Source: Antedon mediterranea (taxonomy: Eukaryota; Echinodermata; Crinoidea; Comatulida; Antedonidae). Taken from it: 64,000 nucleotides of DNA. The stretch lies in contig NC_092679.1 in NCBI RefSeq assembly GCF_964355755.1, forward strand, positions 24,676,432 to 24,740,431, written 5' to 3'. The position numbers and the translations under genes are program-made. Below are positions 1,215 to 62,000 of the stretch, in pieces (position 1 is the first letter of the stretch; every line of letters starts with the position of its first letter). Below the pieces are notes generated by a model that made no database searches, had not been told where the DNA came from, and worked only from the letters and a program-made list of their open reading frames with translations.

Positions 1215-1218
1215 AATT

Positions 1219-1450
1219 TGCTTGAGGTTTTTTTTGTAATACTACTACTGTTATGTTTAAAAATCCTAATGCATTTTCCTTTAAACATTGTTGAACTGTG
1301 GTTTCATAACCTGCAAAGTTTGAGAGTTTTGCTTGAGGTTTTTTTTGTAATACTACTACTGTTATGTTTAAAAATCCTAATGCATTTTCCTTTAAACATT
1401 GTTGAACTGTGGTTTCATAACCTGCAAAGTTTGAGAGTTTTGCTTCAGGT
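1219..1450. repeat. 111-bp tandem duplication (two copies plus a diverged third upstream)
   Basis: Two nearly identical 111-bp copies begin with GCTTGAGGTTTTTTTTGTAA at about 1220 and 1331. A decayed copy sits near 868-935. Because 111 is a multiple of three, the repeat stays open in one frame, but the translated product looks like low-complexity hydrophobic sequence and is not taken as a gene. Confidence 0.9.
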
Positions 1451-1651
1451 TTTTGGGTAATAGTATGTATGTTTGATGTATGTATGTATTTTAAGAAACT
1501 ATTGGTTTCAAAGTTCTATTCTATTGTATAGCAAAAGTAATTTTCTCTGTGTGGTTCATGTGGATTACAAGACAGTTTACAAATAGCTGTGGAAACCAAC
1601 TTTCCATCCCATAGAACATCAACTTCTGGGTCATCAGAAATATCCCCCACA

Positions 1652-2133
1652 ATTAATGTGGTCTTGTCAATTCCTTCTCTCCCCATGGAGAATAGGGCCT
1701 AGTATTTCTGTCCTCCACACTCCCATATCTTGGGAATGTACCCAAGTATTAATGTGGTCTTGTCAATTCCTTCTCTCCCCATGGAGAATAGGGCCTTGTA
1801 TTTCTGTCCTCCACACTCCCATATCTTGGGAATGTACCCAAGTATTAATGTGGTCTTGTCAATTCCTTCTCTCCCCATGGAGAATAGGGCCTTGTATTTC
1901 TGTCCTCCACACTCCCATATCTTGGGAATGTACCCAAGTATTAATGTGGTCTTGTCAATTCCTTCTCTCCCCATGGAGAATAGGGCCTTGTATTTTTGTC
2001 CTCCACACTCCCATATCTTGGGAATGTACCCAAGTATTAATGTGGTCTTGTCAATTCCTTCTCTCCCCATGGAGAATAGGGCCTTGTATTTTTGTCCTCC
2101 ACACTCCCATATCTTGGGAATGTACCCAAGTTT
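1652..2133. repeat. 96-bp minisatellite, five copies
   Basis: Five copies of a 96-bp unit starting ATTAATGTGGTCTTGTCAAT at 1652, 1748, 1844 and so on. Copies differ by single bases (for example CTTGTATTTC versus CTTGTATTTT). The period is 32 codons, which keeps several frames open on both strands without being evidence of coding. Confidence 0.95.
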
Positions 2134-4931: not shown

Positions 4932-5066
4932 TTGGTTAAATGAAAATATTTTTCTGTGAACATAATTTCAATAAAGCTATGTTTAATGTGGTTGTTGTTT
5001 GGTTAAATGAAAATATTTTTCTGTGAACATAATTTCAATAAAGCTATGTTTAATGTGGTTGTTGTC
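4932..5066 (+). repeat. 67-bp tandem duplication before the TASP1 splice acceptor
   Basis: Two perfect or near-perfect copies of a 67-bp unit start at about 4932 and 4999 (TTGGTTAAATGAAAATATTT). They end directly before the acceptor of the first TASP1 exon in the window, so the likely branch-point and upstream acceptor context is duplicated. Confidence 0.9.
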
Positions 5067-5071
5067 CACAG

Positions 5072-6702
5072 GGGTCCAGTTTTCTTATGGATACAGTTGG
5101 TGCAATATGTTTGGATACAAGTGGAAACATTAGTTCAGCTGTTTCTAGTGGAGGAATTTTGTTAAAACATCCTGGACGAATTGGACATGTAAAGACAGTT
5201 TTGTTTTACTTGAACCAAAAGGCTATTATTTAGCACGAAATACAAATAAATATTACATTAATATAATAATATAATTTAAAATTAGTTTTCAGAAAAAGTC
5301 TGTTCTATTTTTACTATTTTATTAAGGTTTAACAATTGTTTTATATTACTTTAGGCAGCTATGTTTGGTTGTGGTTGCTGGTCACATAATTGTGAAGAAG
5401 ATAACTTTGGAGTATCCTGCTCGGCAACCGGTAGTGGAGAACAGATTATACGAACAAACTTGGCTTCAAAGTGTTGCCAGAATGTACTTAATAAAGACAA
5501 CCCTTTTCAAGCTATTCAAGAAACCTTTACTAATGACTTTGTTAGTAAGTGCAACTATTAATATTTTTTATAGAAAGAGTGTTAGTATTGTGGTACAGGC
5601 ACAAGTCTGTGCACGCCAGTTGCACCAGCCTGCTTTTTGCTATTTTCAAGTTATTGAAAACAACCCTGATACTTGTAACTTGTTTACAAGCAGCATGTCT
5701 TTTTTATTTATTTAGGGGGCTGCCCTTTTTTATTGTTATTTATCTAGGGAACTGCCCTGGATAGGTTGTTTACCAGAAGGATCCAGACAGTGGCATGTTA
5801 TTGAAAACAACCCTGATACTTAAAAGCAGCATGTCTAGGGGACTGCCGTGGATAACTTGTTTACCTGCATACTCCTTCCTAAAAGAAGACAGAAAGCCAG
5901 ACAGTGGTTGTTAAAAAAATACTTGTTGATTTGCTCTCAATGAGAGAAGACAAGTTTTGTGCTGAATAAATTCCCTCTAAATACAGAGTAATGATTGTCT
6001 GACTATTTATTTTAACGAATATAACACTATCAAAGATTTATTGTGTCCATTGATTACTGTAGGCCTTTATAATAGACATATAATTTGTCACGTTGATGAA
6101 TTAAGTTGTTTTTATTTTTTTGTATTTACAGATAGCCCACTGCTTTGTAATGATAGTGAGAAGCTAGGTGGTGCTATTGTGTTGAGTTACAATCAAAATA
6201 ATGCTGAACTTGTTTGGGCTCACACAACAGATAGCATGTGTCTGGGTTACATGTCTACTAGAGATAAATATCCAAAGGTATACAAAATTCAAATTCAATA
6301 ACCACATACAACAAAGTGTTCCGTCATGTCTTACAGCTGCCACCAAGCGGCGCTCATTCGGCTGTCCACGACACAGGGCTGTGTTGGACCACCTGGGTGG
6401 TTGAGGAGTACCTTGAACGTACCTGTACCAATTGTATGGTTATTGTTTGCGGCCCCCTGTCTTAACCGCTCATCAACTTGACTCCACCCAAAGAATTGCA
6501 ACATAATTTTTTGGGGTTTTTGTCTTGTTGACATAAATATGTTACATACATTTCCTAGCAAAAAAAAACATAAAATCTAATCGCATTGAAATGAATGATG
6601 GAAACATAGTTTTATATTGTTTAGGTCAAGATGTCAAGACTATCAAAAGAAAGCAAAATGGGTGAATCTCTTTGTCTTGGAGGCTGTGCATTTAAATTAT
6701 GA
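5072..6702 (+). CDS. TASP1: Threonine aspartase 1 (taspase-1), last four exons, complete beta subunit
   Basis: Exons 5072-5188, 5355-5544, 6132-6277 and 6625-6702 join in frame with GT-AG borders (phases 0, 1, 0) and give 176 residues to a TGA stop. Taspase-1 is a type 2 asparaginase-family Ntn hydrolase that autocleaves before a threonine and then cuts nuclear factors such as MLL and TFIIA after aspartate. The first exon carries the autocleavage site MDTVGA with the nucleophile Thr codon at 5093-5095, followed by [14 protein letters not shown]. Next comes [10 protein letters not shown] and GSGEQIIRT, then the conserved [14 protein letters not shown]. The last exon reads [20 protein letters not shown] and ends CAFKL. 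Length from the threonine matches the human beta subunit. The 5' exons (alpha subunit) were not found. The 3' end is unusual: the stop codon lies inside the first unit of an 85-bp minisatellite. Confidence 0.95.
5581..5990 (-). repeat. Dispersed repeat related to the 114-bp array at 19.5-21.3 kb
   Basis: Within the TASP1 intron, segments such as AGCAGCATGTCTAGGGGACT and TTGATTTGCTCTCAATGAGA are reverse-complement matches to 19560-19800 and 21120-21230. It is therefore a second, opposite-orientation copy of the same dispersed family, with two to three degenerate internal subrepeats rather than a long array. Confidence 0.75.
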
Positions 6703-8690
6703 CATCTGGTCACTTCAGTTATGGTAACATGCTGATCACAAATACTGGTTGACTAAGGAGGCTGTGCTTTTCAACTATGACAACATGAGGTCTGGTCACT
6801 TCGGTTAAGGTAACATGCTGATCACAAATACTGGTTGACTGGGAGGCTGTGCTTTTTAACTATGTCAACATCAAATCTAGTCACTTCAGTTAAGGTAACA
6901 TGCTGATCACAAGTACTGGTTGACTGGAAGGCTGTGCTTTTTAACTATGTCAACATCAAATCTAGTCACTTCAGTTAAGGTAACATGCTGATCACAAGTA
7001 CTGGTTGACTGGGAGGCTGTGCTTTTTAACTATGTCAACATCAAATCTAGTCACTTCAGTTAAGGTAACATGCTGATCACAAGTACTGGTTGACTGGGAG
7101 GCTGTGCTTTTTAACTATGTCAACATCAAATCTAGTCACTTCAGTTAAGGTAACATGCTGATCACAAATACTGGTTGACTGGGAGGCTGTGCTTTTTAAC
7201 TATGTCAACATCAAATCTAGTCACTTCAGTTAAGGTAACATGCTGATTACAAGTACTGGTTGACTGGGAGGCTGTGCTTTTTAACTATGTCAACATCAAA
7301 TCTAGTCACTTCAGTTAAGGTAACATGCTGATCACAAGTACTGGTTGACTGGGAGGCTGTGCTTTTTAACTATGTCAACATCAAATCTAGTCACTTCAGT
7401 TAAGGTAACATGCTGATCACAAGTACTGGTTGACTGGGAGGCTGTGCTTTTTAACTATGTCAACATCAAATCTAGTCACTTCAGTTAAGGTAACATGCTG
7501 ATCACAAGTACTGGGTGACTGGGAGGCTGTGCTTTTTAACTATGTCAACATCAAATCTAGTCACTTCAGTTAAGGTAACATGCTGATCACAAGTACTGGT
7601 TGACTGGGAGGCTGTGCTTTTTAACTATGTCAACATCAAATCTAGTCACTTCAGTTAAGGTAACAGGCTGATCACAAATACTGGTTGACTGGGAGGCAGT
7701 GCTTTTTAACTATGTCAACATCAAATCTAGTCACTTCAGTTAAGGTAACATGCTGATCACAAGTACTGGTTGACTGGGAGGCTGTGCTTTTTAACTATGT
7801 CAACATCAAATCTAGTCACTTCAGTTAAGGTAACATGCTGATCACAAGTACTGGTTGACTGGGAGGCTGTGCTTTTTAACTATGTCAACATCAAATCTAG
7901 TCACTTCAGTTAAGGTAACATGCTGATCACAAGTACTGGTTGACTGGGAGGCTGTGCTTTTTAACTATGTCAACATCAAATCTAGTCACTTCAGTTAAGG
8001 TAACATGCTGATCACAAGTACTGGTTGACTGGGAGGCTGTGCTTTTTAACTATGTCAACATCAAATCTAGTCACTTCAGTTAAGGTAACATGCTGATCAC
8101 AAGTACTGGTTGACTGGGAGGCTGTGCTTTTTAACTATGTCAACATCAAATCTAGTCACTTCAGTTAAGGTAACATGCTGATCACAAGTACTGGTTGACT
8201 GGGAGGCTGTGCTTTTTAACTATGTCAACATCAAATCTAGTCACTTCAGTTAAGGTAACATGCTGATCACAAGTACTGGTTGACTGGGAGGCTGTGCTTT
8301 TTAACTATGTCAACATCAAATCTAGTCACTTCAGTTAAGGTAACATGCTGATCACAAGTACTGGTTGACTGGGAGGCTGTGCTTTTTAACTATGTCAACA
8401 TCAAATCTAGTCACTTCAGTTAAGGTAACATGCTGATCACAAGTACTGGTTGACTGGGAGGCTGTGCTTTTTAACTATGTCAACATCAAATCTAGTCACT
8501 TCAGTTAAGGTAACATGCTGATCACAAATACTGGTTGACTGGGAGGCTGTGCTTTTTAACTATGACAACATGAGGTCTAGTCACTTCAGTTAAGGTAACA
8601 TGCTGATCACAAGTATTGGTTGACTAAGGAGGCTGTGCTTTTCAACTATGACAACATGAGGTCTGGTCACTTCAGGTTCATACTGATCAG
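6679..8690 (+). repeat. 85-bp minisatellite derived from the TASP1 terminal exon, about 24 units
   Basis: Units start GGAGGCTGTGCTTTTTAACT. The first unit (6679, 78 bp) is the TASP1 coding end itself: codons for Gly-Gly-Cys-Ala and the stop. Later units begin at 6757, 6842 and every 85 bp to 8628. Edge units carry ATGACAACATGAGGTCTGG, whereas the internal ones are homogenised to ATGTCAACATCAAATCTAG, the pattern expected from unequal exchange in the interior. Each unit keeps a short G-G-C-A-F-stop reading. If the TASP1 transcript runs through, most of the array is 3' UTR. Confidence 0.95.
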
Positions 8691-9490
8691 AAATATACTT
8701 TTTCTGACAAAAAGTTGGTTTGCAACTTTTAATGATCGATATGAAAGGTTTATACATTATTTTATATTATTTTAGTGTGTTTAAAGAACACAGTATTTTG
8801 TGATATACTATACAGGTCAGTGCACAAAAGCGTGAGTACCATATGTCTCTTTTGATACATTATTTATTAGTTATCTTATTTTTTTTTTCTGTATACAAAT
8901 TTTGCAGAAACAAACAACTATTGACTTAAAAAAAAGGCCAGCGCCAAACAGGTAATGGTTCAGTATTATTTACCGGTAGGTACTAACCGCCCTGTTTCCA
9001 ATTGCACCTCCACGTTCTGCACAGAGGCATATGCTGGTTCTTGTGCAAAAATTGTGAATAGGTCCCAGGAAATTGAATGTATACTTTAATATATAACAAA
9101 ATATAGGAGTCTCTCTTTCCTATATTTATATCTTCCTGGTTGTGGCTGAGATAAGAACATTTTAAAAAATAGAGCTGCCAAGTCCTCAATAATCGCACTT
9201 ATACTTTGAAGATGTCAGACCTAGGCCTAAAAAGTGCATGTCATTAAGTTGCGTTTGATTTACTAAAATGTACTCTTGCTGCTCATCCTGAATGCCTACA
9301 GCTTTGAATGCCAAAAATCTAGAATGTGCAGGGGCGGATTCAAGGGTCATATGATCTCTGGCCCCTTCATGTAATCCTGTTTGCAACCTCTTACTGATCA
9401 GTAACCACTGATCTTCTTTCTACTTCCTGTTGAAAGAAATAAGTTTTTTTAGTTTATTTAAAAATATTGGAGTAAGTGATTGCAAGAGGT
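8691..9490. other. No gene recognised; contains a dispersed repeat end
   Basis: No coding exon is supported. A motif at about 9160-9205 (AAAAAATAGAGCTGCCAAGT) recurs at about 29788-29830 in the same orientation and at 39090-39130 inverted, marking the end of a dispersed element family. Confidence 0.5.
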
Positions 9491-9640
9491 TCAATGTTAC
9501 TGGACCGTTCTTCAATTGGTGCAATGTTACTGGACCGTTCTTCAATTGGTGCAATGTTACTGGACCGTTCTTCAATTGGTGCAATGTTACTGGACCGTTC
9601 TTTAATTGGTGCAATGTTACTAGACCGTTCTTTAATTAGT
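9491..9640 (+). repeat. 30-bp minisatellite, five copies
   Basis: Five copies of a 30-bp unit (CAATGTTACTGGACCGTTCT...). It is the short component of the higher-order array that follows; the last copies change TGGACC to TAGACC. Confidence 0.95.
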
Positions 9641-12572
9641 CTAAATAGAGCTGTGCTTGTTCATCAATCATCATGTGGAAATGTTACTAGACCGTTCTCT
9701 AATTAGTCTAAATAGAGCTGTGCTTGTTCATCAATCATCATGTGGAAATGTTACTAGACCGTTCTCTAATTAGTCTAAATAGAGCTGTGCTTGTTCATCA
9801 ATCATCATGTGGAAATGTTACTAGACCGTTCTCTAATTAGTCTAAATAGAGCTGTGCTTGTTCATCAATCATCATGTGGAAATGTTACTAGACCGTTCTT
9901 TAATTGGTGCAATGTTACTAGACCGTTCTCTAATTAGTCTAAATAGAGCTGTGCTTGTTCATCAATCATCATGTGGAAATGTTACTAGACCGTTCTCTAA
10001 TTAGTCTAAATAGAGCTGTGCTTGTTCATCAATCATCATGTGGAAATGTTACTAGACCGTTCTTTAATTAGTCTAAATAGAGCTGTGCTTGTTCATCAAT
10101 CATCATGTGGAAATGTTACTAGACCGTTCTCTAATTAGTCTAAATAGAGCTGTGCTTGTTCATCAATCATCATGTGGAAATGTTACTAGACCGTTCTCTA
10201 ATTAGTCTAAATAGAGCTGTGCTTGTTCATCAATCATCATGTGGAAATGTTACTAGACCGTTCTTTAATTGGTGCAATGTTACTAGACCGTTCTCTAATT
10301 AGTCTAAATAGAGCTGTGCTTGTTCATCAATCATCATGTGGAAATGTTACTAGACCGTTCTCTAATTAGTCTAAATAGAGCTGTGCTTGTTCATCAATCA
10401 TCATGTGGAAATGTTACTAGACCGTTCTCTAATTAGTCTAAATAGAGCTGTGCTTGTTCATCAATCATCATGTGGAAATGTTACTAGACCGTTCTTTAAT
10501 TGGTGCAATGTTACTAGACCGTTCTCTAATTAGTCTAAATAGAGCTGTGCTTGTTCATCAATCATCATGTGGAAATGTTACTAGACCGTTCTCTAATTAG
10601 TCTAAATAGAGCTGTGCTTGTTCATCAATCATCATGTGGAAATGTTACTAGACCGTTCTTTAATTAGTCTAAATAGAGCTGTGCTTGTTCATCAATCATC
10701 ATGTGGAAATGTTACTAGACCGTTCTCTAATTAGTCTAAATAGAGCTGTGCTTGTTCATCAATCATCATGTGGAAATGTTACTAGACCGTTCTCTAATTA
10801 GTCTAAATAGAGCTGTGCTTGTTCATCAATCATCATGTGGAAATGTTACTAGACCGTTCTTTAATTGGTGCAATGTTACTAGACCGTTCTCTAATTAGTC
10901 TAAATAGAGCTGTGCTTGTTCATCAATCATCATGTGGAAATGTTACTAGACCGTTCTCTAATTAGTCTAAATAGAGCTGTGCTTGTTCATCAATCATCAT
11001 GTGGAAATGTTACTAGACCGTTCTCTAATTAGTCTAAATAGAGCTGTGCTTGTTCATCAATCATCATGTGGAAATGTTACTAGACCGTTCTCTAATTAGT
11101 CTAAATAGAGCTGTGCTTGTTCATCAATCATCATGTGGAAATGTTACTAGACCGTTCTCTAATTAGTCTAAATAGAGCTGTGCTTGTTCATCAATCATCA
11201 TGTGGAAATGTTACTAGACCGTTCTCTAATTAGTCTAAATAGAGCTGTGCTTGTTCATCAATCATCATGTGGAAATGTTACTAGACCGTTCTTTAATTGG
11301 TGCAATGTTACTAGACCGTTCTCTAATTAGTCTAAATAGAGCTGTGCTTGTTCATCAATCATCATGTGGAAATGTTACTAGACCGTTCTCTAATTAGTCT
11401 AAATAGAGCTGTGCTTGTTCATCAATCATCATGTGGAAATGTTACTAGACCGTTCTCTAATTAGTCTAAATAGAGCTGTGCTTGTTCATCAATCATCATG
11501 TGGAAATGTTACTAGACCGTTCTCTAATTAGTCTAAATAGAGCTGTGCTTGTTCATCAATCATCATGTGGAAATGTTACTAGACCGTTCTCTAATTAGTC
11601 TAAATAGAGCTGTGCTTGTTCATCAATCATCATGTGGAAATGTTACTAGACCGTTCTCTAATTAGTCTAAATAGAGCTGTGCTTGTTCATCAATCATCAT
11701 GTGGAAATGTTACTAGACCGTTCTCTAATTAGTCTAAATAGAGCTGTGCTTGTTCATCAATCATCATGTGGAAATGTTACTAGACCGTTCTCTAATTAGT
11801 CTAAATAGAGCTGTGCTTGTTCATCAATCATCATGTGGAAATGTTACTAGACCGTTCTTTAATTGGTGCAATGTTACTAGACCGTTCTCTAATTAGTCTA
11901 AATAGAGCTGTGCTTGTTCATCAATCATCATGTGGAAATGTTACTAGACCGTTCTCTAATTAGTCTAAATAGAGCTGTGCTTGTTCATCAATCATCATGT
12001 GGAAATGTTACTAGACCGTTCTCTAATTAGTCTAAATAGAGCTGTGCTTGTTCATCAATCATCATGTGGAAATGTTACTAGACCGTTCTCTAATTAGTCT
12101 AAATAGAGCTGTGCTTGTTCATCAATCATCATGTGGAAATGTTACTAGACCGTTCTCTAATTAGTCTAAATAGAGCTGTGCTTGTTCATCAATCATCATG
12201 TGGAAATGTTACTAGACCGTTCTCTAATTAGTCTAAATAGAGCTGTGCTTGTTCATCAATCATCATGTGGAAATGTTACTAGACCGTTCTTTAATTGGTG
12301 CAATGTTACTAGACCGTTCTCTAATTAGTCTAAATAGAGCTGTGCTTGTTCATCAATCATCATGTGGAAATGTTACTAGACCGTTCTCTAATTAGTCTAA
12401 ATAGAGCTGTGCTTGTTCATCAATCATCATGTGGAAATGTTACTAGACCGTTCTCTAATTAGTCTAAATAGAGCTGTGCTTGTTCATCAATCATCATGTG
12501 GAAATGTTACTAGACCGTTCTCTAATTAGTCTAAATAGAGCTGTGCTTGTTCATCAATCATCATGTGGAAAT
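9640..12572 (+). repeat. Higher-order minisatellite built from 67-bp and 30-bp units
   Basis: The main 67-bp unit begins TAAATAGAGCTGTGCTTGTT and ends CCGTTCTCTAATTAGTC. At about 9905, 10270, 10500, 10865, 11295, 11865 and 12295 a 30-bp unit containing TTTAATTGGTGCAATGTTAC is inserted. Spacings correspond to 3, 5, 6 or 8 copies of 67 bp plus one 30-bp unit, which is a higher-order organisation. No coding potential. Confidence 0.95.
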
Positions 12573-13078
12573 ATTGTTGTAATATTGTATAAATCCACCA
12601 TTTGTATTTGTATACATCTGGATATACTTGTCTAACAATGTCCACCTCTTGACAAAAGTCAACATAAAAGTTATGTAGGCTTTTCCTTTCTGAGATAATC
12701 TTTCGTAACGCCCTGGGTTGAGCAGGCTGTCGGATTTCCCGAATCTTTCTCCCGTCTTTTTAATACCACATGGGCACTCCTGTTTGTTCCATTTCTCTCC
12801 CTACTTGTCGTCAATGGTCACTCTTTATGTGCCTCTTTTCACCTTCTTTGCTTGTATGACGTATTCGTAATTCTTGCTCTACATTCATCTTTGCTATTCA
12901 TTCATCTTTGCTATTCGTATAGTATATCTTGCACACCCATTAAATTTACAAAGTGCTTTCAGTGTATCAATTAAAATTGTTAATAAACACATCTAAAGAA
13001 GAATGCAGTTTTTTTTAATTAAATAAATATTGGTATGTCTGTTGTCCCAAAAATGTATTGAAAAATTTGACTTTAATA
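12573..13078 (-). other. Duplicate of the segment at 14560-14790
   Basis: About 12675-12900 matches 14560-14790 (shared TAATACCACATGGGCACTCC and GTGCCTCTTTTCACCTTCTT) but is more decayed. No intact frame. It may be debris of the same unidentified gene or element. Confidence 0.7.
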
Positions 13079-15124: not shown

Positions 15125-16330
15125 TCTGTAGCACTTCTGTGCTGTCATTTGAACTTATATTTGACATAAATTCCAGGATGATTATAGTTGGCCACAAATA
15201 TAATATCACCTGTGCAATGGGCAACACAAGACCACTCTGTCGTTCTTTTCTGTAATTATATTTCCGACGGCAAAAGTGCGGTTTGTGGATGATGTCCTTT
15301 TCTTGAATTGTTCAACTATGTAAGATTTGATAACTTCAGACATTTTGACATTTTACTCTGTCTTGGAGATTTATGTCTGCTCCTGCATCCAACAGCAGAC
15401 TGCAGCAGGCTGTGTGACCTGCAGACATTTTGACATTTTACTCTGTCTTGGAGATTTATGTCTGCTCCTGCATCCAACAGCAGACTGCAGCAGGCTGTGT
15501 GACCTGCAGACATTTTGACATTTTACTCTGTCTTGGAGATTTATGTCTGCTCCTGCATCCAACAGCAGACTGCAGCAGGCTGTGTGACCTGCAGACATTT
15601 TGACATTTTACTCTGTCTTGGAGATTTATGTCTGCTCCTGCATCCAACAGCAGACTGCAGCAGGCTGTGTGACCTGCAGACATTTTGACATTTTACTCTG
15701 TCTTGGAGATTTATGTCCGCTCCTGCATCCAACAGCAGACTGCAGCAGGCTGTGTGACCTGCAGACATTTTGACATTTTACTCTGTCTTGGAGATTTATG
15801 TCCGCTCCTGCATCCAACAGCAGACTGCAGCAGGCTGTGTGACCTGCAAACATTTTGACATTTTACTCTGTCTTGGAGATTTATGTCTGCTCCTGCATCC
15901 AACAGCAGACTGCAGCAGGCTGTGTGACCTGCAATAGCTGCATAATGCAAAGCTGACGTTAAGTTCTATAATATAAAATAGACAACCTTTCCTTCATTTG
16001 TTGGTAGTGTTGTTCTTTCATTCTTATTTTTAATCGTCTGTTACATAATTTGCACCTTTTTGGCATTTCATTCATGTTGTTTTTCATATTTACCTATATA
16101 AAATAGAAACATTTTTGAAAATAAAAAGTATAAAATTGTTTTGTTTGGTACTTACTTGGCAGTACCGATTAAGATTCCTATTTCCTCCAAGAGATCATTA
16201 TTACCATTTGTACCGAACACAGATGGCATGATTGATTAACATTGCTGTTCTGTACAATAAAAGTAGTTTTCTCTCGATACCGAATCGTGATAGCGACCCG
16301 CGACGGCGTGGAGCAGTAAGTTTACTGTTT
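15124..16330. repeat. Segmental duplication, copy 1 (partner 16914-17920)
   Basis: Starting at TATATCTGTAGCACTTCTGT, about 1.2 kb is repeated at 16914-17920 with nearly the same order: a unique 5' part, the 85-bp ankyrin-derived array, and a shared 3' part (GTTGGTAGTGTTGTTCTTTC through GCGACCCGCGACGGCGTGGA). The arrays differ in copy number (about 7 versus about 4.6). Confidence 0.9.
15337..15942 (-). repeat. 85-bp minisatellite made from an ankyrin-repeat exon, about seven copies
   Basis: On the minus strand the rightmost copy reads HYAAIAGHTACCSLLLDAGA followed by DINLQD, a clear ankyrin-repeat consensus (helix-turn-helix and beta-hairpin start). The unit is 85 bp, so each repeat shifts frame and an ankyrin reading occurs only every third copy. 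It is therefore an amplified fragment of an ankyrin-repeat exon, not a functional ankyrin gene. Confidence 0.9.
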
Positions 16331-16913: not shown

Positions 16914-17920
16914 TCTGTAGCACTTCTGTGCTGTCATTTGAACTTATATTTGACATATAAATTCCAGGATGATTATGGTTGGCCACAAATATAATATCAC
17001 CTGTGCAATGGGCAACACAAGACCACTCTGTCGTTCTTTTCTGTAATTATATTTCCGACGGCAAAAGTGCGGTTTGTGGATGATGTCCTTTTCTTGAATT
17101 GTTCAACTATGTAAGATTTGATAACTTCAGACATTTGTGTCTGCTCCTGCATCCAACAGCAGACTGCAGCAGGCTGTGTGACCTGCAGACATTTTGACAT
17201 TTTACTCTGTCTTGGAGATTTATGTCTGTTCCTGCATCCAACAGCAGACTGCAGCAGGCTGTGTGACCTGCAGACATTTTGACATTTTACTCTGTCTTGG
17301 AGATTTATGTCTGCTCCTGCATCCAACAGCAGACTGCAGCAGGCTGTGTGACCTGCAGACATTTTGACATTTTACTCTGTCTTGGAGATTTATGTCCGCT
17401 CCTGCATCCAACAGCAGACTGCAGCAGGCTGTGTGACCTGCAGACATTTTGACATTTTACTCTGTCTTGGAGATTTATGTCTGCTCCTGCATCCAACAGC
17501 AGACTGCAGCAGGCTGTGTGACCTGCAATAGCTGCATAATGCAAAGCTGACGTTAAGTTCTATAATATAAAATAGACAACCTTTCCTTCATTTGTTGGTA
17601 GTGTTGTTCTTTCATTCTTATTTTTAATCGTCTGTTACATAATTTGCACCTTTTTGGCATTTCATTCATGTTGTTTTTCAGATTTACCTATATAAAATAG
17701 AAACATTTTTGAAAATAAAAAGTATAAAATTGTTTTGTTTGGTACTTACTTGGCAGTACCGATTAAGATTCCTATTTCCTCCAAGAGATCATTATTACGA
17801 TTTGTACCTCAACACAGACGGCATGATTAACATTGATGTACAATAAAAGTAGTTTTCTCTCGATACCGAATCGTGATAGCGACCCGCGACGGCGTGGAGC
17901 AGTAAGTTTACTGTTTACAG
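16914..17920. repeat. Segmental duplication, copy 2
   Basis: Second copy of the 15124-16330 block. It is joined on its left to piggyBac sequence in the opposite orientation from copy 1, so a rearrangement accompanied the duplication. Confidence 0.9.
17131..17536 (-). repeat. 85-bp ankyrin-exon minisatellite, second array, about 4.6 copies
   Basis: Same unit as at 15337-15942, with the first unit truncated (CAGACATTTGTGTCTGCTCC). The intact right-hand copy again reads the ankyrin consensus on the minus strand. Confidence 0.9.
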
Positions 17921-40461: not shown

Positions 40462-41032
40462 ATGAAGAAAGTTCAGTCAACCTTATTTCAGAGCTGGGGA
40501 ACAAATCCGTCTGTCTGTCCGTCTGGCCATTCCTCAAATCCGTCTGGCCATTCCTCAAATCCGTCTGGCCATTCCTCAAATCCGTCTGGCCATTCCTCAA
40601 ATTCTAAAACATCAAGTGAATGCTTTGATGACGCTGAAAATATTAATGACCTTGATGATGAAACGTTACTGGCAGCGTGCCAAAAATGGGACAACAGTGA
40701 CTCTTCTAAACAAACACAAGGCACCCCATTGGAAGATCTACCAGGGTTTGATACATCATCTGGACACATTTGGATCTATCCAACAAACCTGCCTGTTCGT
40801 GACTACCAGTTTAACATTGTTGAACAGTCTCTTTTCAAGAATACATTGGTAACATTACCAACTGGTTTGGGTAAAACTTTCATTGCAGCGGTTGTTATGT
40901 ATAATTTCTATCGATGGTATCCATCTGGGAAGATTGTTTTCATGGCACCAACAAAACCACTGGTAGCTCAGCAAATTGAAGCTTGTTATAATATAATGGG
41001 AATACCACAAAATCACACTGCAGAAATGACAG
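40462..41032 (+). CDS. FANCM: FANCM exon 1: N-terminus, coding minisatellite and Walker A
   Basis: Start chosen at [13 protein letters not shown] because TLFQ-x-WG matches the vertebrate FANCM start. Residues about 20-47 are four perfect PSGHSSN heptads encoded by a 21-bp tandem repeat (40519-40602). After an acidic stretch comes [20 protein letters not shown] (Q motif region) and Walker A LPTGLGKT at residues 132-139, then [20 protein letters not shown] with motif Ia. Donor AACAG|GTATAA style, phase 1. Confidence 0.96.
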
Positions 41033-53000: not shown

Positions 53001-56000
53001 ACATGTTTAAAAATGTTGAAATGTTTAAAAACATTTATATTTTTTTAATTTACACGTGCATAGCCTGTCACTTTTGACGTGCTCGTATAACGTAGTTTCG
53101 AGTTGAAAAGTAAGTCAAGAAAACAGAAATCGGGCAAAAAAAGCGCGCAATAACATTTAACGCGCAGTGCGCGCGCAAAAATCTGTGCACTCATGGCAAT
53201 TTTGTAAACGCTTAAAATTGCCTGAAACGTACTCTTATTTCATCGAAAATTAATTTTGACAATTTTAAGCGCGCGTACGCATGCGTTACATGCGCTACGC
53301 ACGTAATTGTATTGCCATATGATGATTTATGCCCTGAAATTTATGAGTACCAAATTTTATTTAATTGTGATTCATGGTTGTGAAGATGATTACAAACGTG
53401 ATTTCATTAAATCGTGCGTAGACCGCGTAATTTTTTATTGCGCACCGTGAAAACATAGATTGTGAGAGTGTGTCAGCTTTCAATGACTTTTATAGCTCCA
53501 CTTCGTTGACTTGATAGGTTAGACAGTGTGTCAGCTCTCTAAAGCTTTCAATGACTTTTATAGCTCCACTTCTTTGACTTGATAGGTTAGTTAGTGTGTG
53601 AGCTCTCTAAAGCTTTCAATGACTTTATAGCTCCACTTCTTTGACTTGATAGGTTAGTTAGTTTGTGCGCTCTCTAAAGCGTTCAATGACTTTTATAGCT
53701 CCACTTCTTTGACTTGATAGGTTAGTTAGTGTGTCAGTTCTCTAAAGCTTTCAATGACTTTTATAGCTCCACTTTTTTGACTTGATAGGTTAGTTAGTGT
53801 GTCAGCTCTCTACTAAAGCTTTCAATGACTTTTATAGCTCCACTTCTTTGACTTGATAGGTTAGTTAGTGGGTCAGCTCTCTAAAGCTTTCAATGACTTT
53901 ATAGCTCCACTTCTTTGACTTGATAGGTTAGTTAGTGTGTCAGCTCTCTAAAGCTTTCAATGACTTTTATAGCTCCACTTCTTTGACTTGATAGGTTAGT
54001 TAGTGTGTCAGCTCTCTAAAGCTTTCAATGACTTTATAGCTCCACTTCTTTGACTTGATAGGTTAGTTAGTGTGTCAGCTCTCCAAAGCTTTCAATGACT
54101 TTTATAGCTCCACTTATTTGACTTGATAGGTTAGATAGTGTATCAGCTCTCTAAAACTGACTTGTTGGTTCACTAAAAAGCTGAACTTTTTTGCACGGAA
54201 ATTATTAGATATTTATACTGAACTTTTTTTTAGCATAATAATAAATTGTTATATATCATATCATATATAATATATTGTTATAAATTGTTATATATCATAT
54301 CATATATAATATATTGTTATAAATTGTCTTATACCGTTTTCGCCTCTCGTCAGTGTGTTTTTCAATTTTGTGGAAAACCTCCCGAGATTTCACAGAGGTC
54401 CCCTGTGAAATCTCGGGTGGTTTTTGCAAACCTGGTTTCAACTTGTTCAACAGATGTGAAATGGGTAATTTTTACAATATACATTCTACAATAGTTTTGT
54501 TATTTGTTTTAGCTTGCAATACAAGACCTTTTTGAGTTAGAAGCTGATGTTGATAGTGATGTAGACTGTTCATCTGATGAGAATGATAACAGCCAAGTTG
54601 ATAAATCCATATTGGACTTCATTAACGATAACACAGTCTGTTCTCAAGCTGGTGGTATGTATTGTTAAGTTCTATGTCAATATGTATTAGATAGCTTCTG
54701 TGTATATAATAGATCAATTAAAAAAAATGTTTTCACTCTATCAAACAGAAAGCACAAGCTTGCTAATTACAGAATAGGATTTACTGATTGACCTACGTCT
54801 AAATTGTTAAGGAGTGACTGTGTGATTATAGCTATTACATTTATACGAAACTCTAAAGATACACTGAAAACTACAGTATACAGTATGCTACATGAACATG
54901 TACAGTACTTTATTTAAAAAAAATAAAAACTGTTAGATATAATAATTGTTCATTCTTATATAGCGCATTATAAGCACATTATGACCATAGTCATTTTTGG
55001 ATCAAACATGTATGGAAGCATACTCCCATAATAATGCAGCTAGATCAAACACGTATGGAAGCATACTCCCACAATAATGCAGCTAGATCAAACACGTATG
55101 GAAGCATACTCTCATAATAATGCAGCTAAATCAAACACGTATGGAAGCATACTCCCATAATAATGCAGCTAGATCAAACACGTATGGAAGCATACTCCCA
55201 TAATAATGCAGCTAGATCAAACATGTATGGAAGCATACTCCCATAATAATGCAGCTAGATCAAACACGTATGGAAGCATACTCCCATATTAATGCAGCTA
55301 GATCAAACACGTATGGTTGGAAGCATACTCCCATAATAATGCAGCTAGATCAAACACGTATGGAAGCATACTCCCATAATAATGCAGCTAGATCAAACAC
55401 GTATGGAAGCATACTCCCATATTAATGCAGCTAGATCAAACAAGTATGGAAGCATACTCCCATAATAATGCAGCTAGATCAAACACGTATGGTTGGAAGC
55501 ATACTCCCATAATAATGCAGCTAGATCAAACACGTATGGAAGCATACTCCCATAATAATGCAGCTAGATCAAACACGTATGGAAGCATACTCCCATAATA
55601 ATGCAGCTAGATCAAACACGTATGGAAGCATACTCTCATAATAATGCAGCTAAATCAAACACGTATGGAAGCATACTCCCATAATAATGCAGCTAAATCA
55701 AACACGTATGGAAGCATACTCTCATAATAATGCAGCTAGATCAAACACGTATGGAAGCATACTCCCATAATAATGCAGCTAGATCAAAAACGTATGGAAG
55801 CATACTCCCATAATAATGCAGCTAGATCAAACACGTATGGAAGCATACTCCCATAATAATGCAGCTAGATCAAACACGTATGGAAGCATACTCCCATAAT
55901 AATGCAGCTAGATCAAACACGTATGGAAGCATACTCCCATAATAATGCAGCTAGATCAAACACGTATGGAAGCATACTCCCACAATAATGCAGCTAGATC

Positions 56001-59000
56001 AAACACGTATGGAAGCATACTCCCATAATAATGCAGCTAGATCAAACACGTATGGAAGCATACTCCCACAATAATGCAGCTAGATCAAACACGTATGGAA
56101 GCATACTCCCATAATAATGCAGCTAGATCAAACACGTATGGAAGCATACTCCCACAATAATGCAGCTAGATCAAACACGTATGGAAGCATACTCCCACAA
56201 TAATGCAGCTAGATCAAACACGTATGGAAGCATACTCCCATAATAATGCAGCTAAATCAAACAAGTATGGAAGCATACTCCCATAATAATGCAGCTAGAT
56301 CAAACACGTATGGAAGCATACTCCCATAATAATGCAGCTAGATCAAACAAGTATGGAAGCATACTCCCATAATAATGCAGCTAGATCAAACACGTATGGA
56401 AGCATACTCCCATAATAATGCAGCTAGATCAAACACGTATGGAAGCATACTCCCATAATAATGCAGCTAGATCAAACACGTATGGAAGCATACTCCCACA
56501 ATAATGCAGCTAGATCAAACACGTATGGAAGCATACTCCCATAATAATGCAGCTAGATCAAACAAGTATGGAAGCATACTCCCATAATAATGCAGCTAGA
56601 TCAAACACGTATGGAAGCATACTCCCATAATAATGCAGCTAGATCAAACACGTATGGAAGCATACTCCCATAATAATGCAGCTAGATCAAACACGTATGG
56701 AAGCATACTCCCATAATAATGCAGCTAGATCAAACACGTATGGAAGCATACTCCCATAATAATGCAGCTAGATCAAACACGTATGGAAGCATACTCCCAT
56801 AATAATGCAGCTAGATCAAACACGTATGGAAGCATACTCCCATAATAATGCAGCTAGATCAAACACGTATGGAAGCATACTCCCACAATAATGCAGCTAG
56901 ATCAAACACGTATGGAAGCATACTCCCATAATAATGCAGCTAGATCAAACAAGTATGGAAGCATACTCCCATAATAATGCAGCTAGATCAAACACGTATG
57001 GAAGCATACTCCCATAATAATGCAGCTAGATCAAACAAGTATGGAAGCATACTCCCATAATAATGCAGCTAGATCAAACACGTATGGAAGCATACTCCCA
57101 TAATAATGCAGCTAGATCAAACACGTATGGAAGCATACTCCCATAATAATGCAGCTAGATCAAACACGTATGGAAGCATACTCCCATAATAATGCAGCTA
57201 GATCAAACACGTATGGAAGCATACTCCCATAATAATGCAGCTAGATCAAACACGTATGGAAGCATACTCCCATAATAATGCAGCTAGATCAAACACGTAT
57301 GGAAGCATACTCCCATAATAATGCAGCTAGATCAAACACGTATTGAAGCATACTCCCATAATAATGCAGCTAGATCAAACACGTATGGAAGCATACTCCC
57401 ATAATAATGCAGCTAGATCAAACACGTATGGAAGCATACTCCCATAATAATGCAGCTAGATCAAACACGTATGGAAGCATACTCCCATAATAATGCAGCT
57501 AGATCAAACACGTATTGAAGCATACTCCCATAATAATGCAGCTAGATCAAACACGTATGGAAGCATACTCCCATAATAATGCAGCTAGATCAAACACGTA
57601 TGGAAGCATACTCCCATAATAATGCAGCTAGATCAAACACGTATGGAAGCATACTCTCATAATAATGCAGCTAAATCAAACACGTATGGAAGCATACTCC
57701 CATAATAATGCAGCTAGATCAAACACGTATGGAAGCATACTCCCACAATAATGCAGCTAGATCAAACACGTATGGAAGCATACTCCCATAATAATGCAGC
57801 TAGATCAAACACGTATGGAAGCATACTCCCATAATAATGCAGCTAGATCAAACACGTATTGAAGCATACTCCCATAATAATGCAGCTAGATCAAACACGT
57901 ATGGAAGCATACTCCCATAATAATGCAGCTAAATCAAACACGTATGGAAGCATACTCCCATAATAATGCAGCTAGATCAAACACGTATGGAAGCATACTC
58001 CCATAATAATGCAGCTAGATCAAACACGTATGGAAGCATACTCCCATAATAATGCAGCTAGATCAAACACGTATGGAAGCATACTCCCATAATAATGCAG
58101 CTAGATCAAACACGTATGGAAGCATACTCCCATAATAATGCAGCTAGATCAAACACGTATGGAAGCATACTCCCATAATAATGCAGCTAGATCAAACACG
58201 TATGGAAGCATACTCCCATAATAATGCAGCTAGATCAAACACGTATGGAAGCATACTCCCATAATAATGCAGCTAGATCAAACAAGTATGGAAGCATACT
58301 CCCATAATAATGCAGCTAGATCAAACACGTATGGAAGCATACTCCCATAATAATGCAGCTAGATCAAACACGTATGGAAGCATACTCCCATAATAATGCA
58401 GCTAGATCAAACACGTATGGAAGCATACTCCCACAATAATGCAGCTAGATCAAACACGTATGGAAGCATACTCCCACAATAATGCAGCTAGATCAAACAC
58501 GTATGGAAGCATACTCCCATAATAATGCAGCTAGATCAAACACGTATGGAAGCATACTCCCATAATAATGCAGCTAGATCAAACATGTATGGAAGCATAC
58601 TCCCATAATAATGCAGCTAGATCAAACACGTATGGAAGCATACTCCCATAATAATGCAGCTAGATCAAACACGTATGGAAGCATACTCCCACAATAATTC
58701 AGCTAGATCAAACACGAATGGAAGCATACTCCCATAATAATGCAGCTAGATCAAACACGTATACATCACTTTGGAGTGTACTGGAACACTTGCATGAAAT
58801 AACATGATCTGTAGCCTCTAGAGTGTTATCAATTTGATGATTACATCACTTTGGAGTGTACTGGAACACTTGCATTAAATAACATGATCGGTAGCCTCTA
58901 GAGTGTTATCAATTTGATGATTACATCACTTTGGAGTGTACTGGAACACTTGCATTAAATAACATGATCTGTAGCCTCTAGAGTGTTATCAATTTGATGA

Positions 59001-62000
59001 TTACATCACTTTGGAGTGTACTGGAACACTTGCATGAAATAACATGATCTGTAGCCACTAGAGTGTTATCAATTTGATGATTACATCACTTTGGAGTGTA
59101 CTGGAACACTTGCATGAAATAACGTGATCTGTAGCCTCTAGAGTGTTATCAATTTGATGATTACATCACTTTGGAGTGTACTGGAACACTTGCATGAAAT
59201 AACATGATCTGTAGCCTCTAGAGTGTTATCAATTTGATGAGTACATCACTTTGGAGTGTACTGGAACACTTGCATGAAATAACATGATCTGTAGCCTCTG
59301 AGTGTTATCAATTTGATGATTACATCACTTTGGAGTGTACTGGAACACTTGCATGAAATAACATGATCTGTAGCCTCTAGAGTGTTATCAATTTGATGAT
59401 TACATCACTTTGGAGTGTACTGGAACACTTGCATGAAATAACATGATCTGTAGCCTCTAGAGTGTTATCAATTTGATGATTACATCACTTTGGAGTGTAC
59501 TGGAACACTTGCATGAAATAACATGATCTGTAGCCTCTAGAGTGTTATCAATTTGATGATTACATCACTTTGGAGTGTACTGGAACACTTGCATGAAATA
59601 ACATGATCTGTAGCCCCTAGAGTGTTATCAATTTGATGATTACATCACTGTGGAGTGTACTGGAACACTTGCATGAAATAACATGATCTGTAGCCTCTAG
59701 AGTGTTATCAATTTGATGATTACATCACTTTGGAGTGTACTGGAACACTTGCATGAAATAACATGATCTGTAGCCCCTAGAGTGTTATCAATTTGATGAT
59801 TACATCACTTTGGAGTGTACTGGAACACTTGCATGAAATAACATGATCTGTAGCCTCTAGAGTGTTATCAATTTGATGATTACATCACTTTGGAGTGTAC
59901 TGGAACACTTGCATGAAATAACATGATCTGTAGCCTCTAGAGTGTTATCAATTTGATGATTACATCACTTTGGAGTGTACTGGAACACTTGCATGAAATA
60001 ACATGATCTGTAGCCCCTAGAGTGTTATCAATTTGATGATTACATCACTTTGGAGTGTACTGGAACACTTGCATGAAATAACATGATCTGTAGCCTCTAG
60101 AGTGTTATCAATTTGATGATTACATCACTTTGGAGTGTACTGGAACACTTGCATGAAATAACATGATCTGTAGCCCCTAGAGTGTTATCAATTTGATGAT
60201 TACATCACTTTGGAGTGTACTGGAACACTTGCATGAAATAACATGATCTGTAGCCTCTAGAGTGTTATCAATTTGATGATTACATCACTTTGGAGTGTAC
60301 TGGAACACTTGCATTAAATAACATGATCTGTAGCCTCTAGAGTGTTATCAATTTTTGGAGTGTACTGGAACACTTGCATGAAATACAATGATCTGTAGCC
60401 TCTAGAGTGTTATCAATTTGATGATTACATCACTTGGGAGTGTACTGGAACACTTGCATGAAATAACATGATCTGTAGCCTCTAGAGTGTTATCAATTTG
60501 ACATGATCTGTAGCCTCTAGAGTGTTATCAATTTGATGATTACATCACTTTGGAGTGTACTGGAACACTTGCATTAAATAACATGATCTGTAGCCTCTAG
60601 AGTGTTATCAATTTGATGATTACATCACTTTGGAGTGTACTGGAACACTTGCATGAAATAACATGATCTGTAGCCTCTAGAGTGTTATCAATTTGATGAT
60701 TACATCACTTTGGAGTGTACTGGAACACTTGCATTAAATAACATGATCTGTAGCCTCTAGAGTGTTATCAATTTGATGATTACATCACTTTGGAGTGTAC
60801 TGGAACACTTGCATTAAATAACATGATCTGTAGCCTCTAGAGTGTTATCAATTTGATGATTACATCACTTTGGAGTGTACTGGAACACTTGCATTAAATA
60901 ACATGATCTGTAGCCTCTAGAGTGTTATCAATTTGATGATTACATCACTTTGGAGTGTACTGGAACACTTGCATTAAATAACATGATCTGTAGCCTCCAG
61001 AGTGTTATCAATTTCTAACTTGCCTTTCTTTCAGTTATTAATGTGACATTTAAAACATCTTGTAATTATGTACTCCAAAGGAAAAACAAATTGCCAATAG
61101 AAATGCATATAATTCAAGATGATATAATGAAACGGTTGATTTACAGTTGCCGTACAAACTCATATTTAATTAAACTATAAATTAAGTATAGTTTATTGAT
61201 TAATCTGATTCTAAAATATATTAATATTCGGCTCTTATTTGTCATAATTTCACGCTGTAGGAGTTCTGTCATTCATCATGTCTCTTATATTCACTGTAAT
61301 TGTAAATGACAGTTCAACAATAGTTCATGATCTATTAAAAGCATTATAATTTTTCAATTACAAATTCCTCTGATTACAACTTTAAAGCAAACATTATGAT
61401 CTAATTATTAAACAATAATTTATGTACAAGTTGGTTATATTCAAAATATAAATGGCAGGTAAATAATATAAGTATAGGCCTAAGTAGTTACCGAAAATTA
61501 TAGGCTTTACAGTATATATTAGTATAATAATCCCAAGCTCAGGTATAATCCCACCTCCACTCAAATATATGATAAACGTTGAATTCCATGGTTATAAAAT
61601 CCCACACCTGTAATTCCTATATACGGTATATTTATGAAGAAGATAATCAAGAGATACTGTTAGTTGTTTTTTTGTTTGATATTATCGATATCACATAAAA
61701 CCAGTAGAGAAATTACAAATTTATTGATTTATTTATTCATGTGACTGGATTGCATTTTAACGTAGTACTGCTTTTCAAAATGGTCCAGTTACAAAGTTTA
61801 AACGTAAAGAAAAGTTAATGATACAGAAAAATGAAAGCATAAATAATTTAAAAGACATACTATAACATTTACTATCTAAATTTCAGGAGGTGATGTGCAG
61901 GCGCTTTACTTAAAATCATTAAGGGACTCTGATAACCAGACAACCAACAACAGATATAGACTTGCACCACAAAGAGACGGTGATGATGAGATGATATTCT

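Follow-up and report, generated by a model that had tools for sequence, protein, structure and literature searches.

The TASP1 gene end and the array behind it

The window, i.e. the whole stretch of 64,000 nucleotides of Antedon mediterranea DNA that was analyzed, contains the last exons of a gene which runs directly into a tandem array (Table 1). We assign this gene end to TASP1, as its predicted exons combine matches to the Asparaginase_2 family with a TASP1-type C-terminus in the last exon. In a phmmer search against the PDB, the last two exons matched human threonine aspartase 1 at 8.3e-9 to 1e-8, and the HMMER alignment to human TASP1 is gapless and runs into unit 1 of the array as far as GGC. 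When the last exon was compared with human TASP1 over 18 ungapped columns, in an alignment that was anchored by hand at SRL following the phmmer alignment, 6 of the 18 were identical (shuffle p = 0.00015). The last codons are GGA GGC TGT GCA TTT AAA TTA TGA. The A. mediterranea protein thus ends with GGCAFKL-stop, while the human chain has a longer end (EGGVCRLESPVN), which makes the A. mediterranea protein five codons shorter. It should be noted that the seven codons that lie within unit 1, when taken alone, match human TASP1 only weakly, with one G and the L identical and K facing R (aligned by eye).

Table 1 Features of the TASP1 gene end and of the array, in window coordinates.
Feature	Coordinates	Strand	Basis and remarks
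TASP1 exon	5072-5188	+	Pfam Asparaginase_2, E 6e-9, in translation of 5066-5200; splice sites by eye
TASP1 exon, ends NDFV	5355-5544	+	Pfam Asparaginase_2, E 1.3e-7, in joined C-terminal peptide; splice sites by eye
TASP1 penultimate exon, SPLLCND...DKYPK	6132-6277	+	donor AAG/GTATAC; phmmer to human TASP1
TASP1 last exon, coding part	6625-6702	+	stop TGA at 6700-6702; phmmer and shuffle test
Unit 1	6679-6756	+	TASP1 last 7 codons and stop, then 54 bases; private 8-base deletion
Unit 2	6757-6841	+	mainly edge-type; frame 0 reads GGCAFQL-stop
Units 3-22	6842-8541	+	homogenised interior type; frame 0 reads GGCAF-stop; unit 4 has EG, unit 13 has S for C
Unit 23	8542-8627	+	mosaic of interior and edge states (alignment columns)
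Unit 24	8628-8690	+	edge type; a diverged tail follows, to about 8708
Two AATATA hexamers, candidate weak poly(A) signals	9088-9105	+	inferred from hexamer list

A search of the genome for the Asparaginase_2 family yielded ten matches, two of them in the TASP1 gene considered here (C10:24671536 and 24681515), five near C10:22.37 Mb and three on C5. Between the two TASP1 exon matches lie minisatellites of 39, 87, 111 and 96 bp, which are therefore inside the gene (segment L001 7923-8322 and 8597-9515, and window 1217-2131); the 96-bp one is open in frames of both strands. The last TASP1 intron contains a dispersed repeat (window 6310-6500), with at least 12 matches in the genome including itself, the other 11 being partial and 76-88% identical.

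Structure and uniqueness of the array

In the window, TRF reported an 85-bp tandem array at 6704-8675, with 23.2 copies, 97% matches and a score of 3702. Cutting the array at the GGAGGC-type start of each unit resolved it into 24 head-to-tail units that run from 6679 to 8690. The sequence-only reading, in which a 24-copy, 85-bp array beginning within the last TASP1 codons had been noted, was thus correct as to coordinates, unit length, copy number and codons, according to TRF, the splitting into units and the sequence itself. Units 2-22 are 85 bases long, while unit 1 has 78, unit 23 has 86 and unit 24 has 63 (being cut at 8690), and a weakly similar tail continues past unit 24 to about 8708 (shuffle p = 0.0005). 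Identical units account for 13 of the 24. Minisatellites consist of head-to-tail units of about 10-100 bp in arrays of at least 0.5 kb, and the TASP1 array, with 24 units of 85 bp over 2.0 kb, is of such a size.

The start of the array at 6679 can be accepted with some reservation, since shuffles revealed no match between exon and unit upstream of this position (p = 0.99 and 0.85), but in BLAST, 21 of 24 matches extend leftward by another 6-7 bases, to 6672-6673, such that the edge is not sharp. Apart from these few bases in BLAST, earlier units within the exon upstream of 6679 were rejected on the same shuffles. A coding array on either strand can likewise be discarded, as all six frames are rich in stops (48, 47 and 49 on the plus strand, 66, 71 and 69 on the minus strand) and the longest open stretch spans 46 codons.

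To consider copies elsewhere, the 354-Mb assembly was searched with three probes, namely an interior unit, units 23-24 with their flank, and the exon end with unit 1. These yielded 24, 20 and 24 matches, respectively, every one of them at C10:24.683-24.685 Mb, in a search that leaves out masked stretches and words of very high frequency and scores none but the best candidates, so that single far copies could escape it. As the unit was found at one locus only, we consider the array to be a local product, and within the scope of this search a dispersed satellite or a mobile-element repeat is rejected.

Divergence of the units

The units fall into a homogenised interior and diverged edges (units 1, 2, 23 and 24), a combination that is the mark of unequal exchange in minisatellites. 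Units 3-22 depart from their consensus at only 8 of 1700 bases, and 3 of these 8 departures are one and the same state (A at column 72), which is common to units 1 and 2. Compared over 77 positions, unit 1 shows 6 differences to unit 2 and 8 to the interior, and GACAACATGAGG is common to units 2, 23 and 24. We read this pattern as an old duplication that appears to be preserved at the edges, with later amplification in the middle of the array.

Eight bases that are present in all 23 other units are missing from unit 1. The current unit 1 is therefore not the template of the others, and as all the others keep these bases, the simplest assumption is that unit 1 lost them after the duplication. 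Unit 1 would then, on the simplest reading, be the gene-held descendant of the founder rather than the founder unchanged. In their coding part, units 1 and 2 show three base differences, two of them synonymous, a number too small for testing.

Read in frame 0, unit 1 gives GGCAFKL-stop and units 2 and 24 give GGCAFQL-stop, while the other 21 units stop directly after F. It had been proposed that exchange between units could rewrite the C-terminus of TASP1. Since the frame-0 reading of every unit stops early, such an exchange would alter or remove only about two residues and the stop would be kept. At columns 24, 38, 72 and 85, unit 1 shows A, G, A and A as opposed to T, A, G and G in the interior consensus; unit 1 thus displays no interior-type state and no trace of exchange at the columns that can be judged, which excludes those within its 8-base deletion.

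Origin of the array

From what is directly observed, i.e. the array, the homology of the exon, the single locus and the edge/interior pattern, we infer the direction of copying, the mechanism, the transcription of the array and its lack of function as follows. The left breakpoint of a tandem duplication would have fallen, by chance, seven to nine codons within the coding end of TASP1, such that an ancestral segment of about 86 bp, consisting of the coding end, the stop and the proximal 3' flank, was duplicated. The middle may then have been amplified and homogenised by repeated unequal exchange or replication slippage, with both ends, unit 1 with the real stop and units 23-24, left as diverged relics. 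That the gene retained its stop would be due to the position of unit 1 at the outer edge and to the fact that each unit, when read in this frame, has a stop within eight codons. The array probably lies within the 3' UTR and would have no function of its own. We hold it quite likely that the array is such a minisatellite, born by tandem duplication from a breakpoint inside the coding end, with an amplified middle and relic ends. Birth from the stop region of TASP1, as had been suggested, thus agrees with the homology of the exon to human TASP1, with the GGCAF(K/Q)L-stop frame in units 1, 2 and 24 and with the single locus, but unit 1 as it stands, with 8 bases missing, cannot have served as the template. 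The direction of copying and the age of the array are both read from one genome, and this should be considered when referring to them.

The opposite order of events, in which the repeat came first and an array located behind TASP1 entered the end of the last exon by spreading or exchange, supplying the final seven codons and the stop, could explain why these codons alone resemble the human protein so little and why the protein ends ahead of the human one. We regard this as unlikely, as the gapless HMMER alignment enters the unit up to GGC and K-L then faces human R-L (by eye), as unit 1 is edge-type or private at all columns that can be judged, and as none of the three probes found a copy at another locus. 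One might also suspect that the array is real but that its copy number was inflated or collapsed during assembly, as the number of units is difficult to establish without spanning reads when 13 of them are identical. Private or rare states are, however, scattered over units 4, 6, 7, 10, 12, 13, 22 and 23, which a simple duplication error would not yield, and such an artefact seems very improbable. We therefore return to a tandem duplication with its left breakpoint in the TASP1 coding end as the reading to be preferred. The coding nature of the founder allows its segment to be named, and the locus offers a clear case of the birth of a minisatellite in which the gene holds unit 1 in place and the other units are free to drift. 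That each unit stops in the same frame suggests why the array is tolerated.

Transcript end and possible function

No AATAAA or ATTAAA is found on the plus strand between 5965 and 12939, i.e. up to 6.2 kb behind the stop. For the 1536 bases counted as nonredundant, the flanks would predict 4.6 such canonical hexamers (Poisson P0 = 0.010), although this rate is somewhat high, as the flank begins where the next signals lie. The 7 kb from 5966 to 12938 that lack both hexamers on the plus strand belong to an A+T-rich region and consist mostly of two arrays. Using a list of non-canonical poly(A) hexamers, we found AAGAAA at 6647 and TTTAAA at 6691 (inside unit 1) ahead of unit 2, and AATATA at 8692, 9088 and 9100, among others, past the array. 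Since such weak hexamers are present both before and behind the array, they do not settle the end of the transcript. AATATA behind the array, if used, could produce an mRNA with the whole array, while TTTAAA at 6691, if used, could leave most of the array outside the mRNA. That copy number sets the length of the 3' UTR, as was proposed, is accordingly to be seen as possible.

For RNA structure, folding of single units in the sense direction gave z-scores of +0.77, +0.48 and -0.90 relative to shuffles, four units gave +1.91 and one antisense unit gave +1.03, and an Rfam scan of 6000-9300 yielded no match up to E 1. With folding no better than that of shuffles and no Rfam match, a structured RNA was rejected. 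A scan of one interior unit, on the sense strand only, with a list of 32 motifs (two of them identical strings) yielded a single match, a loose CPE-like TTTTAA. Sites that resemble a 5' splice site at 7 of 9 positions number 129 on the plus strand of the window, 22 of which fall in units 2-23. The other 107 correspond to about 1.7 per kb in the rest of the window (a rate calculated by hand), such that chance would place one in an 85-base unit in about 1 of 7 cases, and the presence of a site in each unit is therefore unremarkable. Of the proposal that each unit repeats potential regulatory sites, what was recovered is one 5'-splice-like string per unit in units 2-23 and one loose CPE-like string in the interior unit, but nothing else.

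A functional 3' UTR array, in which the repeats tune TASP1 mRNA through its length, protein binding, or U1 or CPE sites and in which copy number is selected, would draw on these strings and on the lack of a canonical hexamer from the stop to the end of the array, since a transcript ending behind the array would hold all units. Against such tuning stand the unexceptional folding, the empty Rfam scan and the lack of any further match among the motifs, as well as the weak hexamers at 6647 and 6691, which could end the transcript earlier, and the 16 other merged arrays of the same window. Altogether, we find a functional array of this kind distinctly improbable. More specifically, the array could serve as a copy-number dial, in which 22 U1-type AAG/GTAAC sites, in a 3' end that lacks canonical poly(A) signals, restrain cleavage and thereby reduce TASP1 output. 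This site of units 2-23 is presumably able to pair six bases with U1 RNA, and if the dial were true, individuals with different numbers of units would differ in TASP1 level, yet we give this idea very little credence. The consequences proposed for the mRNA and the protein are thus unproven or small, and we return to the array as a minisatellite that is otherwise ordinary for an array-rich stretch of chromosome, with no sign so far of any activity.

Comparison with known minisatellites

The TASP1 array belongs with the minisatellites at gene ends and is best compared with the VNTR in the human dopamine transporter gene (SLC6A3/DAT1). The latter has a 40-bp unit that is repeated 3 to 11 times within the transcribed 3' UTR, and reporters with 9 and 10 repeats showed no difference there, with mixed results elsewhere (PMC549191). 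Both arrays consist of head-to-tail units of tens of bases behind the coding end. The TASP1 array differs in its size (85 bp x 24), in that unit 1 includes the last seven codons and the stop, and in that its presence in the mRNA and its variability would be candidate features. When compared with human minisatellite VNTRs at large, it should be considered that this is another organism, represented by one assembly. No array founded on a stop codon appeared among the papers listed, which is no proof of absence in print.

Human subtelomeres are reported to be rich in VNTRs, according to a title cited in PMC12776774. Contig C10 ends about 360 kb from the TASP1 array, and array density is higher near contig ends, although this likeness to the clusters near chromosome ends is based on 12 samples per class and on contig ends that are not established as telomeres.

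Chromosomal setting and other arrays

In total, 17 merged arrays (period of at least 10 and score of at least 100) cover 25.8% of the window. A random gene end would thus be inside an array in about 1 of 4 cases, when selection against arrays in coding DNA is ignored, and as arrays are common here, that a gene end was caught in one is unremarkable. We compared samples of 10 kb each taken 300 kb from contig ends (n = 12) with samples from contig interiors (n = 12), at fixed rather than random places on C1-C8 and C10. The end samples contained 40 arrays with 19.5% coverage and the interior samples 20 arrays with 6.9% (Mann-Whitney p = 0.007), such that in these 12 + 12 samples, the share of sequence in tandem arrays was about three times larger at 300 kb from contig ends than in the contig interiors.

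Several other arrays of the window deserve mention. At 40518-40602, a perfect 21-bp x 4 array keeps the reading frame of a DEAD-helicase ORF, close to its start, and encodes PSGHSSN repeats; we take this ORF to be FANCM. Two separate arrays, at 15337-15933 and 17133-17527, have one 85-bp unit in common, and their minus strand is ankyrin-like (Pfam Ank, E 0.0015, which is below the cut-off, in an ORF over the second array). Finally, at 55000-61014, an array of 43 bp x 87 adjoins one of 80 bp x 28, forming 6 kb of tandem DNA.
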